In this document: piece by piece, positions 53,541 to 57,912 of the stretch
Numbering within the stretch: position 1 is the first letter of the stretch
Layout: each line of letters starts with the position of its first letter
Assembly: GCF_000184745.1 (NCBI RefSeq)
Contig: NC_014931.1
Span: forward strand, 3,162,001 to 3,226,000
Direction: 5' to 3'
DNA length: 64,000 nucleotides
Origin: Variovorax paradoxus EPS
GTDB lineage: Bacteria > Pseudomonadota > Gammaproteobacteria > Burkholderiales > Burkholderiaceae_C
Program-made: the position numbers and the translations under genes
Notes under the pieces: model-generated
What the model saw: the letters and a program-made list of their open reading frames with translations, nothing else
What the model was told of the DNA's origin: nothing
Databases searched by the model: none

Positions 53541-56240
53541 CTACAACTGGTAAGTCACGAGCTTGAAGTCGGGGTCCTCGGGGAACGACTTCACGGTGAA
53601 GCCCAGCCGGCGCACCAGCTTCAGCATGTCGGGGTTGTTGGCGAGCACCAAGCCGTCGACTTCCGACAGGCCCCGGTCGCGCGCGACGTCGATGATGCTT
53701 TCGAGCAGGCGCGAGCCGATGCCCTTGCCGCTGAACTCGTCGGCCACCACCAGCGAGAACTCGCAACTGGTCTGGTCGGGGTTGGTGACGTAGCGCGACA
53801 CGCCCACGATGCGCTCGCTGTCGAGAATCGTGCCGTCGGGCGCGTTGCTGCGCTCCATCACCACGGCCACCAGCGCCATCTCGCGGTCGTAGTCGATCAG
53901 CGTGAAGCGCGACAGCATCGAGGGCGGCAGCTCGTGGAAGCGCGAGACGAAACGGAACCAGCGGCTCTCGGGCGAGAGGCCCTGCACCAGCGCCTGCAGC
54001 ATCTGCGCGTCGTTCGGATGCACCGGCCGCACGGTGTAGATGTCGCCGCCCGTGCCGGGCAGCGGCCACTCGCGCCGGTAGCGCGCGGGGTACGGCATGA
54101 TGGCCAGGTGCTGGTAGCCGCTGCCCACGTGGCCCGCCACCGCCTGCGGGCTGCTGTCGACCACGATGCGCGCATCGACCGAGACCGCGCCATGCTCGTC
54201 CACGATGATGGGGTTGATGTCCATCTCGCGCAGCTCGGGCAGCTCGCACACCATCTCCGACACACGCAGCAGCACGTCTTCGAGCGCTTCCATGTTCACC
54301 GGATTCGCGCCGCGCCATTCGCCCAGCGTCTCGGCCACGCGCGAGCGCTCGATGAGCCGGTGCGCGAGAAACTGGTTGAGCGGCGGCAGCTCCATCGCGC
54401 GGTCGTTCATCAGCTCGATCATGGTGCCGCCCGCGCCGAAGACGATGACCGGGCCGAAGGGCTCGTCGGTCACGAGGCCGACGTAGATCTCGCGGCCGCG
54501 CCGCGCCTTCACCATCTTCTGCACCGTCACGCCGTTGATGCGCGCCTCGGGCGCGAGGCGGGCCACGCGCTCCATCATCTCGACGTAGGTGTCGCGCGCG
54601 CTGGTGCCGTTCAGCACGTTGAGCGCCACGCCTTCGACGTCGGACTTGTGGCTGATGTCGGGCGAGTCGATCTTCAGCGCCACCGGAAAGCCCAGTTGCG
54701 TCGCGATCATCATGGCCTCGTTGGCGCTGCGCGCGAGCAGCGTGCGGGTGATCGGGATGTGGAAGCACGACAGCAGCGACTTCGACTCCATCTCCGTCAG
54801 CACCTTGCGCCGTTCGGCCAGCACGCTTTCGATGATGAGACGCGCGCCTTCGATGTCGGGCTTGGCCAGGGCCGAGAGCGGCGGCGGCGTCTGCTGCAGC
54901 AACTGCTGGTTTTGATAGAAGGCCGCGATGTTGCCGAAGGCGCCGACGGCCGCCTCGGGCGTGCGGAAGCTCGGAATGGTGGCCTCGGCCAGCACGCCGC
55001 GCGCAGGGCCGACGGAGGCGTCGCCCATCCAGCAGGCGAGCAGTGGCTTGTTCATGGGGCGCGGGATGTCGGCGAGGGCGCGCGCCGTGGCGGCCGCATC
55101 GACGCCGGCCTTGGGAGAAAAGATGGCCAGCACGCCATCGACCTGGCTGTCGGCCGAGGCAGTGTCGATGGCAGCGCGGTAGTGGGCAGGCGTGGCGTCT
55201 TCGGAAAGGTCGATCAGGTCCGTGAGCGTGGCGAGCGGCGGCAGTGCGGGGTGCAGCAGCTTCTGCGCGGGTGCGGAGAGCTTGCCGAGGTCCAGGCCGA
55301 TCTCGTTGATCCAGTCCGCTGCCAGCACGCCGGGACCGCCGCCGTTGGTGACCACGGCGAGCCGCTTGCCCACCGGGCGGTAGCGCGAGGCCAGGCACTT
55401 GGCGGCCGAGAACAGCTCGACGAAGGAGCGAACCCGCACCGCGCCCGCGCGGCGCAGTGCGGCATCGAACACGTCGTCGCTGCCGACGATCGATGCGCTG
55501 TGCGTCTGCGCCGCCGCGTTGCCCGCGGGCTTGCGCCCGGCCTTGAGCACCACCACCGGCTTGGCATGCGAGGCCGAACGCAGCGCGCTCATGAAGCGAC
55601 GCGCGTCCGAAATGCCTTCGAGGTACACGATGATGCTGTGCGTGGCCTGGTCGTTGGCGAGGAAGTCCAGCACCTGGGGAATGTCGACCGACGTATGCGG
55701 GCCCAGCGACACCACACTGGAAAAACCGACGCCGTTCTGCCGCGCCCAGTCGAGCATCGAGGCGGTGAGCGCGCCCGATTGCGATACCAGCGCGAGCGGC
55801 CCGGCCTTGGCCAGCGGCCCTGCGACGCTGGCGTTCAGGTGCAGCAGCGGGCGTTGGAAGCCCAGCGAGTTGGGCCCGAGCAGGTGCACGCCTTCGCGGC
55901 GCGCGATCTTGCGCCACTGGGCCGCCTGTTCAGACGCGATGCCGTTGGAGATGACCACCGCGGCCTTGCAGCCGATGCGCCCGGCGATCTCCAGGGCTGC
56001 GGCCACGTCCTGCGGCGCGAGCGCGATGAGGGCGAGGTCGGCATGCGTCTGCGAAAGTTCCTCGAGCGTGCCCTTGGTGCGCACGTCGAGAAAGCGCAGC
56101 GTGCCGTCGAAGCGGTCGGCACGGAAGGCTTCGCGCAGCACGCGGCCCGATGCGGTCTGGCCGCCCGGGTCACTGGCGTTGCCGACGAAGGCCACGGCGG
56201 AGGCGGGGGCGAAGAGCGGGGTCAGGAAGTGCTTGTCCAT
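53541..56240 (-). CDS. patZ: PatZ-like protein lysine acetyltransferase (NDP-forming acyl-CoA synthetase + GNAT)
   Basis: An 899-residue multidomain protein: CoA-binding Rossmann domain (1-130), succinyl-CoA-ligase-like domains (150-450; LVSQSGALTASMLDWA), an ATP-grasp domain (about 490-700; SHKSDVEGVALN), and a C-terminal GNAT domain (about 730-899; SLVVADEFSGKGIGSRLLE). E. coli PatZ (886 aa) has the same order and inactivates acetyl-CoA synthetase by acetylation. The ATG at 56240 matches the family start. A His or Asp phospho-site was not verified. Confidence 0.88.
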   Translation of the reverse strand: MDKHFLTPLFAPASAVAFVGNASDPGGQTASGRVLREAFRADRFDGTLRFLDVRTKGTLEELSQTHADLALIALAPQDVAAALEIAGRIGCKAAVVISNGIASEQAAQWRKIARREGVHLLGPNSLGFQRPLLHLNASVAGPLAKAGPLALVSQSGALTASMLDWARQNGVGFSSVVSLGPHTSVDIPQVLDFLANDQATHSIIVYLEGISDARRFMSALRSASHAKPVVVLKAGRKPAGNAAAQTHSASIVGSDDVFDAALRRAGAVRVRSFVELFSAAKCLASRYRPVGKRLAVVTNGGGPGVLAADWINEIGLDLGKLSAPAQKLLHPALPPLATLTDLIDLSEDATPAHYRAAIDTASADSQVDGVLAIFSPKAGVDAAATARALADIPRPMNKPLLACWMGDASVGPARGVLAEATIPSFRTPEAAVGAFGNIAAFYQNQQLLQQTPPPLSALAKPDIEGARLIIESVLAERRKVLTEMESKSLLSCFHIPITRTLLARSANEAMMIATQLGFPVALKIDSPDISHKSDVEGVALNVLNGTSARDTYVEMMERVARLAPEARINGVTVQKMVKARRGREIYVGLVTDEPFGPVIVFGAGGTMIELMNDRAMELPPLNQFLAHRLIERSRVAETLGEWRGANPVNMEALEDVLLRVSEMVCELPELREMDINPIIVDEHGAVSVDARIVVDSSPQAVAGHVGSGYQHLAIMPYPARYRREWPLPGTGGDIYTVRPVHPNDAQMLQALVQGLSPESRWFRFVSRFHELPPSMLSRFTLIDYDREMALVAVVMERSNAPDGTILDSERIVGVSRYVTNPDQTSCEFSLVVADEFSGKGIGSRLLESIIDVARDRGLSEVDGLVLANNPDMLKLVRRLGFTVKSFPEDPDFKLVTYQL

Positions 56241-56400
56241 GCGCCAAGTTTGCACCTATAGCCCGGGCCTGTCGCCAGCGGCCACGCGGCTCCTGTACAC
56301 TCCGCCTCCCATGTCGTGCCTCCAACTCCATACCGCATCCACCGCCGTCCGCATGGGCCGGATGATGCCGCCTGCATTCCCGCAGGCAATGGGTGCACGA

Positions 56401-56433
56401 ATGATTACCTCCATTACCACCGCGGCCACCTGA
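56401..56433 (+). CDS. Threonine/isoleucine-rich leader peptide of the hom attenuator
   Basis: Ten codons, M-I-T-S-I-T-T-A-A-T then TGA: four Thr and two Ile of nine residues after Met, the end products of the homoserine branch. It is too short for gene callers. The frame stays open upstream to ATG 56311 (40 codons), so the true start is uncertain; a possible -10 TACACT sits at 56296-56301. Its last codons lie inside RNA segment 1 of the attenuator. Confidence 0.65.
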   Translation: MITSITTAAT

Positions 56434-56523
56434 GCACGCGCAGGTGGCCGTTCCGGCAGCCACCTGGTCAATCGCTCTTCTCCCCGAAGGAATGAAAACC
56501 CAGCTCTGGCAGCTGGGTTTTTT
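56424..56523 (+). promoter_or_regulatory. Attenuator-type leader RNA with alternative stems and terminator
   Basis: Segment 1 GGCCACCTG (56424-56432, overlapping the leader stop) and segment 3 GCCACCTG (56459-56466) can each pair with segment 2 CAGGTGGCC (56441-56449). A perfect terminator follows: AAAACCCAGCT (56495-56505), loop CTGGC, AGCTGGGTTTT (56511-56521), then T residues to 56523. The homoserine dehydrogenase starts 27 bp later. How segment 2:3 would disrupt the terminator is not clear from the bases; a weak 3:4 pairing (CTGG 56464-56467 with CCAG 56500-56503) is possible. Confidence 0.65.
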
Positions 56524-56550
56524 GTTTGTTCTTTCGTTCGGAGAAGTCCC

Positions 56551-57912
56551 ATGTACCGCGATCCAGTCCTGTCCTTTCAGCCCCTTCACGGTGTTCCCGT
56601 GGCCATGCGCCCGCTGCGCGTGGGCATGATCGGCATCGGCACCGTGGGTTCGGGCACCTTCCGCGTGCTGGCCCGCAACCAGGCCGAGATTGCCGGCCGG
56701 GCAGGGCGCGGGATCGAGGTGGTGATGGTGGCCGCGCGCAATCTGCCGCGGGCGGCCAGCATCGTGGGCGACGGCGTCCCGCTGACCGATGACCCGATGC
56801 ACGTCGCCACGCACCCCGACATCGACGTGCTGGTCGAAGTGGCCGGCGGCACCGGCCCGGCGCGCGACTGGGTGCTGGCGGCCATCGCGCACGGCAAGCA
56901 TGTGGTCACGGCCAACAAGGCGCTGCTGGCGGAGCACGGCGGCGAGATCTTCGCGGCCGCCCGGCAGCACGGCGTGGCGGTGGCCTACGAAGGCGCGGTG
57001 GCGGTCAGCATCCCCATCGTGAAGGCGCTGCGCGAAGGGCTCACCGCGAACCGCATCGAGTGGGTGGCGGGAATCATCAACGGCACCACCAATTTCATCC
57101 TGAGCAAGATGCGCGACGAGGGTCTGGACTTCGCCGCAGCGCTCGCCGAGGCGCAAGCCCTGGGCTATGCCGAGGCCGACCCGGCCTTCGACATCGAAGG
57201 CATCGACGCCGCGCACAAGCTCACGCTGCTCGCCGCCAATGCCTTCGGCTCGCCGGTGCGCTTTGCCGATGTGCAGGTGGAGGGCATCACCGCGCTGCAG
57301 GGCGAGGATGTCGCCTCTGCCGAACAGTTGGGCTACCGCATCAAGCTGCTGGGCATCGCGCGCCGTCTGGACGAGGGCATCGAACTGCGCGTACAGCCCG
57401 CGCTCGTGCCCGCCGCGCATCTCATGGCGCATGTGAACAGCTCGATGAACGCAGTCATGGTGAAGGGCGATGCGTCGGGCGTGACGATGTACTACGGCGC
57501 GGGTGCCGGCTCGGAGCAGACGGCATCGGCCGTGATCGCCGACCTGGTCGACGTGGCGCGCCTCGATGGCACCCATGCCGCGCAGCGCGTGCCGCACCTG
57601 GGCTTCCATGCGCACGCCATGAGCGAACTGCCGGTGTTGCCACGCGCGGCCGTGCGGACTTCCCATTACCTGCGCGTCCCCGTGCATTCGGCTAATCAGA
57701 TCGAAGCGGTTGCGGTCTTGCTGGCTGGACAACAGTTGCCGGTGGAGCAGGTGGTGCTGGCGGCGGAGCGGCCGCAGGCCGGGCCTCAGGTGCTGGTGCT
57801 GACGGGGCTGGCGGCGCAAAGCGCGATCGATCTTGCCGTGCATGCGCTGCAGGCGCACCCGGCAGTGAATGGCGCGGTGACGACGTTGCGGGTGGAAGCG
57901 CTCGCGGGCTGA
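56551..57912 (+). CDS. hom: Homoserine dehydrogenase
   Basis: A 453-residue NAD(P)-dependent enzyme reducing aspartate semialdehyde to homoserine for Thr, Ile and Met. Rossmann motif GIGTVGSGTF is near 27; TANKALLAEHG, GIINGTTNFILSKM and the substrate segment AEADPAFDIEGIDAAHKL follow. The C-terminal ACT-like region (about 365-450) starts HYLRVPVHSANQIEA, lacking the D-x-P-G of feedback-sensitive ACT domains. CGGAGAAG precedes the ATG. It stands alone without thrC and is convergent with a glycosidase. Confidence 0.93.
   Translation: MYRDPVLSFQPLHGVPVAMRPLRVGMIGIGTVGSGTFRVLARNQAEIAGRAGRGIEVVMVAARNLPRAASIVGDGVPLTDDPMHVATHPDIDVLVEVAGGTGPARDWVLAAIAHGKHVVTANKALLAEHGGEIFAAARQHGVAVAYEGAVAVSIPIVKALREGLTANRIEWVAGIINGTTNFILSKMRDEGLDFAAALAEAQALGYAEADPAFDIEGIDAAHKLTLLAANAFGSPVRFADVQVEGITALQGEDVASAEQLGYRIKLLGIARRLDEGIELRVQPALVPAAHLMAHVNSSMNAVMVKGDASGVTMYYGAGAGSEQTASAVIADLVDVARLDGTHAAQRVPHLGFHAHAMSELPVLPRAAVRTSHYLRVPVHSANQIEAVAVLLAGQQLPVEQVVLAAERPQAGPQVLVLTGLAAQSAIDLAVHALQAHPAVNGAVTTLRVEALAG

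Follow-up and report, generated by a model that had tools for sequence, protein, structure and literature searches.

A conserved Thr/Ile-type leader, predicted to act as a transcription attenuator, stands before an ACT-less second homoserine dehydrogenase gene in Comamonadaceae

Introduction

How is a second copy of a biosynthetic gene controlled once a genome has acquired it? The question is raised by hom2, one of two homoserine dehydrogenase (hom) genes of Variovorax paradoxus EPS. In enterobacteria, a gene whose product has homoserine dehydrogenase activity is preceded by the thrL leader, with its Thr/Ile-rich peptide and a terminator. A sequence-only reading of the window (the whole 64,000 nt stretch of DNA analysed here) had proposed that a Thr/Ile-type attenuator also stands before this betaproteobacterial hom, and knew of no such element in the lineage. 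We find the proposal well supported, as conservation extends to the Thr codons, the stems, the terminator and hom.

Proteobacterial attenuators were reportedly studied by Vitreschak and colleagues in 2004. Among the matches listed in our search of the open-licence literature, we likewise found no Thr attenuator for betaproteobacteria, and none appears in the retrieved passages of PMC3766115, PMC2965389, PMC2864571, PMC6429828 and PMC7494200. One study of RNA regulons states that the amino-acid attenuators it covered were limited to His, Leu, Thr and Trp, the sole such motifs in Rfam (PMC3766115). The window leader matched no Rfam family at gathering, RF00506 Thr_leader gave no match on 56280-56560 even at E≤10, and the T-box covariance model did not match the leader in the Rfam searches.

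Results

The hom2 locus

The host genome comprises 6.55 Mb in a single contig, and hom2 is the second hom in that genome. Its product scores 507.7 bits against NF004976 homoserine dehydrogenase (cut-off 205), and hom2 is monocistronic.

56551..57912, + strand: hom2, second homoserine dehydrogenase, 453 aa (NF004976; PF00742, PF03447)
56540..56546, + strand: GGAGAAG, probable ribosome-binding site of hom2 (sequence; presumed role)

Upstream, leader and hom2 are flanked by a divergent gene (53541-56255, minus strand) that adjoins the leader promoter and encodes a 904-aa acyl-CoA-ligase/GNAT fusion, protein acetyltransferase-like.

Conservation and spread of the leader

Leader DNA was matched in 38/299 genomes of the family at E≤1e-3, five of the 38 by short near-threshold pieces only. 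A covariance model of the leader, built from 30 sequences, found matches in 46/399 family genomes and 17/141 genera. When 399 genomes of the order were searched with it, three of the seven matches fell in the leader's own family and four in others. These four do not establish spread beyond the family: L038-L040 are weak (27-30 bits) and have no hom nearby, and L037 precedes thrS. A DNA pattern run across named genomes returned 114 stretches; among the matches listed, a full-length leader was present in 59/80 and absent from 21/80. Titles of the full-length leaders listed name Variovorax, Acidovorax, Paracidovorax, Giesbergeria, Simplicispira and Diaphorobacter, and seven further listed leaders come from metagenome bins under broader names, of which one is labelled gammaproteobacterial. 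Viral contigs searched with one exact leader pattern gave no match.

The analyses below rest on 96 loci, 30 from the DNA match, 59 from the DNA pattern and seven from the covariance model. Further loci among L034-L066 were left out, their leaders being represented already. Some genomes are included twice, and the distinct leader sequences number 78. A hom lies downstream of the leader in 91/96 loci; two of the five in which none was seen (L131 and L140) end too soon to judge. By sequence comparison, then, the leader element in front of ACT-less hom2 is real and conserved.

The thrS case, L037, comes from another Burkholderiales family (genome G570; leader 1501-1612, thrS frame 1-1473, both minus strand). 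A Thr-rich frame, VTTTTTTTSMAT-stop, precedes thrS, with its stop codon in a segment-1-like stretch followed by segments like 2 and 3. This leader DNA was found in 1/10 genomes of its own family, namely that of L037, and no Thr leader was found before thrS at 31 other thrS loci, leaving L037 alone of 32, the gene start being misplaced in several of these loci.

Promoter and leader peptide

56296..56301, + strand: TACACT, -10 box of the putative promoter driving the leader (in 94/96 loci a TAnnnT hexamer lies 6-10 nt ahead of an ATG in frame)
56311..56433, + strand: ORF of the leader peptide, MSCLQLHTASTAVRMGRMMPPAFPQAMGARMITSITTAAT-stop (40 codons), for which a leaderless or near-leaderless mRNA is predicted (translation; frame test)
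56401..56430, + strand: Thr/Ile regulatory codons at the leader end, ATG 56401 being an internal Met (residue counts, 78 leaders)

The short frame M-I-T-S-I-T-T-A-A-T-stop, which the sequence-only reading had placed at 56401-56433 upstream of hom, is read directly from the DNA. The ATG at 56401 is very unlikely to be the start codon; on the sequence evidence, translation would begin at ATG 56311. In 94/96 loci the -10 box is followed by an in-frame ATG 31-49 codons ahead of the stop, the hexamer being exactly TACACT in 84/96; the two exceptions are L103, truncated by the locus end, and L101, with a gap of 12. We also counted, blind to frame, the first ATG 4-12 nt after TA[CT][AG]CT. Such an ATG was present in 92/96 loci and shared the frame of the leader stop in 92/92, these loci being related and thus not 92 independent events. 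The in-frame ATGs of the 92 loci define leaders of 17 different lengths and 82 distinct sequences. The four loci without a site are L103 and, with variant hexamers, L031, L067 and L143. Moreover, three leaders (L025, L129 and L143) have no ATG at the place of 56401, and together with the frame test they contradict a 10-mer leader starting there.

In the window, ATG 56311 lies 9 nt after the TACACT box. Because it follows the box so closely, we predict a leaderless or near-leaderless transcript. Good -35 boxes (5-6 of 6) were found in just 21/92 loci, the -35 being often poor, and a consensus scan in the window gave no sigma-70 match.

Thr is concentrated at the end of the leader: at loci with a placed start it accounts for 43% of the final 10 codons, compared with 6% of the remaining leader. 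Counted over the 78 leaders, position 3 is Thr in 63, position 4 Thr in 66, position 5 Ile in 59 or Met in 17, position 6 Thr in 71 and position 7 Thr in 59. The predicted translation product would thus come from a short ORF with codons for the product pathway, as in ribosome-mediated attenuators. The stop codon is TGA in 58 leaders, TAG in 20 and TAA in none; as it belongs to segment 1 (below), pairing may dictate the choice between TGA and TAG.

Competing helices and the terminator

56422..56432, + strand: segment 1, overlapping the stop codon TGA 56431-56433 (1:2 pairing, 78 sequences)
56441..56451, + strand: segment 2, partner of 1 or 3 (2:3 pairing)
56453..56467, + strand: segment 3, partner of 2 or, as antiterminator, of the terminator stem (3:4 pairing; permutation tests)
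56495..56523, + strand: intrinsic terminator, stem 56495-56505/56511-56521, T tract 56518-56523 (scan, fold, sequence)

The competition first noticed in this region, between GGCCACCTG (56424-56432) and GCCACCTG (56459-56466), each complementary to CAGGTGGCC (56441-56449), is read directly from the sequence. Fold and sequence confirm the 11-bp terminator stem with T's to 56523, 27 nt ahead of the hom ATG at 56551. The remark that 2:3 shares no base with the terminator also holds, and 2:3 is thereby ruled out as the antiterminator. The switch logic drawn from it has to be amended, as an extra helix, 3:4, had been overlooked. Here segment 3 pairs with 56500-56516, such that both arms of the terminator stem are taken up. 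This helix closes the chain, and therefore the role of 2:3 is reversed: 2:3 would be the OFF helix.

Over the 78 sequences, 1:2 is paired in 95.7% of cells (slid controls 32-53%), 2:3 in 97.6% (15-69%) and 3:4 in 94.3% (10-46%); the terminator stem, 4:5, is paired in 95.0%. The alignment of relatives thus bears out conservation of the Thr/Ile codons and stems, and only in part the covariation that had been suggested as a check: between columns, 1:2 and 3:4 covary modestly, 4:5 does not covary, and 2:3 shows no covariation above shuffles. We interpret its weakness as resulting from each base serving two helices.

Since 3:4 is the helix on which the chain depends, its pairing was compared with two kinds of control. 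Natural terminators gave 27 cases only, at least one of them probably an unfiltered hom-leader terminator; 1/27 bound segment 3 equally strongly, 5/27 were ON in context and none of the 27 matched the real terminator in number of 3:4 pairs. As this set was small and probably contaminated, stem-permuted terminators were added, 300 per case for 36 distinct combinations. Against these the mean z of 3:4 was -2.8, with ≤2% of controls equally good in 24/36 combinations and 17% in the worst case (L067). In context, the ON state was reached by 50/78 leaders compared with 9.9% of 2340 permuted controls, and 3:4 lay above 95% of a leader's own permuted controls in 64/78. Among 30 leaders, segment 3 and terminator of the same species paired at -21.7 kcal/mol, compared with -19.6 kcal/mol for cross-species pairs. 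Moreover, the diverged leaders L017, L029, L061 and L104 keep 3:4 pairing with other bases.

Could the stems have arisen by chance, or could this be a plain terminator with no regulatory role? The terminator at 56495-56523 is the sole one in 2 kb by consensus scan, and shuffles yield 1.1 on average, a density at which such sites are expected by chance; the scan alone is therefore no evidence. Against a chance origin stand the conservation in 17 genera, the frame test and the permutation tests, which rule it out. Nor does the terminator serve the annotated upstream gene, because that gene runs divergently on the minus strand. The probability that we leave to either version of this explanation is negligible.

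An intrinsic terminator ahead of the structural gene, as attenuators have, is present in the window, and 4/78 relatives are without its T tract. These are L025, L104, L129 and L143; the tract is poor in L029, and in this branch, which possibly uses another mode of control, the distance to hom is shorter. Between segment 3 and the terminator (56468-56494) lies a C/U-rich spacer, retained in most relatives with variable length. Both features would suit a main route of control through Rho, hom2 translation or a trans-acting peptide, with the terminator secondary. We hold this to be very unlikely, given the T tract in the window and in 74/78 leaders and the pairing of the terminator stem reported above.

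Dependence of the fold on ribosome position

Sequence and comparison show a chain of helices, 1:2, 2:3, 3:4 and 4:5, of which neighbours are mutually exclusive. In the mechanism that we propose, a ribosome would initiate at or near the mRNA 5′ end and trail RNA polymerase. With Thr in short supply it would stall on the first Thr codons, leaving segment 1 free to form 1:2; segment 3 would then be released, 3:4 would wrap the terminator and hom2 would be transcribed (ON). A ribosome at the stop codon, within segment 1, would give 2:3 and the terminator, and hom2 would be OFF.

All folding was equilibrium folding. The minimum-energy fold of 56422-56524 contains 1:2 and 3:4 (z -3.61 against shuffles), and that of 56434-56524 contains 2:3 and 4:5 (z -2.85 against shuffles). 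In a scan of the 5′ edge in the window, 3:4 stood at 0.39-0.49 with the first exposed base at 56404-56412 and at 0.57-0.86 with 56414-56424. The terminator reached 0.99-1.0 at 56426-56446; 3:4 appeared again at 56450-56452, and the terminator beyond. With bases upstream of 56404 exposed, 3:4 was ≤0.06, and therefore the ribosome-free fold favours the terminator.

Over the 78 leaders, ON had its maximum (50/78) ten bases before the stop codon, was found in 3-5/78 from 2 before to 10 after it and in 17/78 at +13. A stall at the first Thr codon exceeded a ribosome at the stop in ON by >0.1 in 47, 47 and 38 of 78 leaders at footprints of 9, 11 and 13 nt, and fell below it in 0, 0 and 4. In silico, 49/78 leaders showed both of the mutually exclusive states, terminator and antiterminator, at equilibrium. 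The trp leader offers a measure of timing, as release of the ribosome at the stop takes ~1 s and transcription proceeds at 50 nt per s (PMC1183508); at these rates the OFF shape would have time to form here.

Several observations run against the switch model. In 27/78 leaders the terminator prevails whichever upstream edge is tested, L104 and L061 remain ON around the stop codon, and codons 6-7, where Thr is also conserved, place a stalled ribosome at or past the ON/OFF border. At footprints 9, 11 and 13, a T6 stall was ON in 21, 10 and 5 of 78 leaders and a T7 stall in 8, 3 and 3. These mostly OFF stalls would fit the opposite polarity, in which a ribosome short of Thr would halt at codons 6-7, 2:3 and termination would follow, and hom2 would be on when Thr is plentiful, for instance in a catabolic or reverse role. 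Moreover, within the last ten codons of L013, L014, L064 and L118, Thr first occurs at codon 6; in the first three of these, a stall there is ON at footprint 9, roughly half ON at 11 and OFF at 13, and in L118 it is OFF at all three footprints. We regard this polarity as unlikely, however, as the first Thr codon reached by a starved ribosome is codon 3 or 4 in 71/78 leaders, positions at which the fold is ON, and a biosynthetic enzyme is expected to rise under starvation. For the thr and his attenuators, such a rise of biosynthetic expression on starvation is established.

A trp-type logic would instead start a 10-codon leader at 56401, let the stalled ribosome mask segment 1 and use 2:3 as the antiterminator. 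Segments 1, 2 and 3 and the Thr codons that it needs do exist, and T6 and T7, which adjoin segment 1, would suit its masking. We find it quite unlikely nonetheless: 2:3 and the terminator have no base in common, the terminator probability is 0.99-1.0 when 2:3 is formed, and the frame test and the leaders lacking the 56401 ATG contradict its start codon. From the modelled folds we infer that the attenuator would work as proposed above, with 3:4 as antiterminator and 2:3 as the OFF helix, polarity included.

No recognisable ACT domain in hom2

The canonical hom of the host genome, hom1 (L002), is 59% identical to hom2 and has an aminotransferase gene on one side and a thrC-like frame on the other. 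The one hom1 scanned carries an ACT domain (PF01842, E 1e-10). No ACT domain was found at E≤1 in hom2 of the window and four relatives, nor in 63 distinct complete hom2 proteins from the 96 loci. The leader model has a single match in the host genome and none at the canonical hom. A search of 200 genomes found at least nine with two hom places among the matches listed, to about 474 bits, and all nine listed are leader genomes by the covariance model. ACT loss and attenuator gain may belong together.

In one genus, g73, three loci (L027, L028 and L067) have kept the leader and lost the catalytic part of hom2. In its place stands an ORF of 114-119 aa like the hom2 C-terminal part:

L027, 1105-1446, - strand: ORF like the hom2 C-terminal part
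L028, 1679-2020, + strand: ORF like the hom2 C-terminal part
L067, 1109-1465, - strand: ORF like the hom2 C-terminal part

Identity to that part is 66% over 64 aa in L028 (E 2e-19) and 59% over 44 aa in L067, and the short ORFs of the three loci have no Pfam match above cut-off. A full hom2 is present in L023, also of genus g73.

Discussion

Taken together, these data make it likely that the hom2 leader is a ribosome-controlled transcription attenuator, which would sense charged tRNA-Thr (and probably tRNA-Ile) and control ACT-less hom2. Judged by its sequence, it is a real attenuator of known type, in a variant that we did not find described in this lineage. With the enterobacterial thr leader (thrL; RF00506) it shares a Thr/Ile-rich leader peptide, a terminator and a homoserine dehydrogenase gene downstream. 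Unlike thrL, it has a long ORF of the leaderless type and the chain 1:2/2:3/3:4/4:5 with 2:3 as the predicted OFF helix, and it precedes monocistronic ACT-less hom2 and not thrABC. In the enterobacterial his attenuator, as here, the stretch from the leader codons to the terminator can form a chain of three or more alternative helices, and an additional front segment carries the His codons; in the hom2 leader that front segment is missing and the codons lie just ahead of segment 1. T-box leaders of Firmicutes, which precede amino-acid genes, respond to uncharged tRNA, whereas the hom2 leader would sense through a translated ORF.

Two further systems resemble it in single respects. In Corynebacterium glutamicum ilvBNC, terminator, antiterminator and anti-antiterminator hairpins are found, and the antiterminator overlaps the terminator (PMC11857589). 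The likeness is one of folding, with no claim of common descent, and ilvBNC differs in its branched-chain amino acid codons and its actinobacterial host. In Sinorhizobium meliloti, the trpL attenuator RNA begins directly with the ATG of its leader peptide (PMC7298713). For the hom2 leader, an ATG at or near the RNA 5′ end is predicted, from the -10 box 6-10 nt upstream in 94/96 loci; trpL, unlike the hom2 leader, encodes a 14-aa peptide, concerns Trp and belongs to an alphaproteobacterium.

We tentatively suggest, as a scenario that could well prove wrong, that in Comamonadaceae a duplicated hom lost its ACT feedback domain and control shifted to a leaderless Thr/Ile attenuator with reversed hairpin roles, in which the first, pause-type hairpin means ON and covering it means OFF. 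In one genus the switch would have outlived the enzyme and would now drive a stand-alone C-terminal remnant, possibly a small regulatory protein.

If this is right, a textbook mechanism would be extended by another lineage, by a leaderless start and by a further order of helices, and attenuation would be linked with a duplicated enzyme that has lost its feedback domain. It would also suggest a reason why such leaders get missed: the start of the peptide is concealed at the promoter, and two partners per segment may suppress ordinary covariation.
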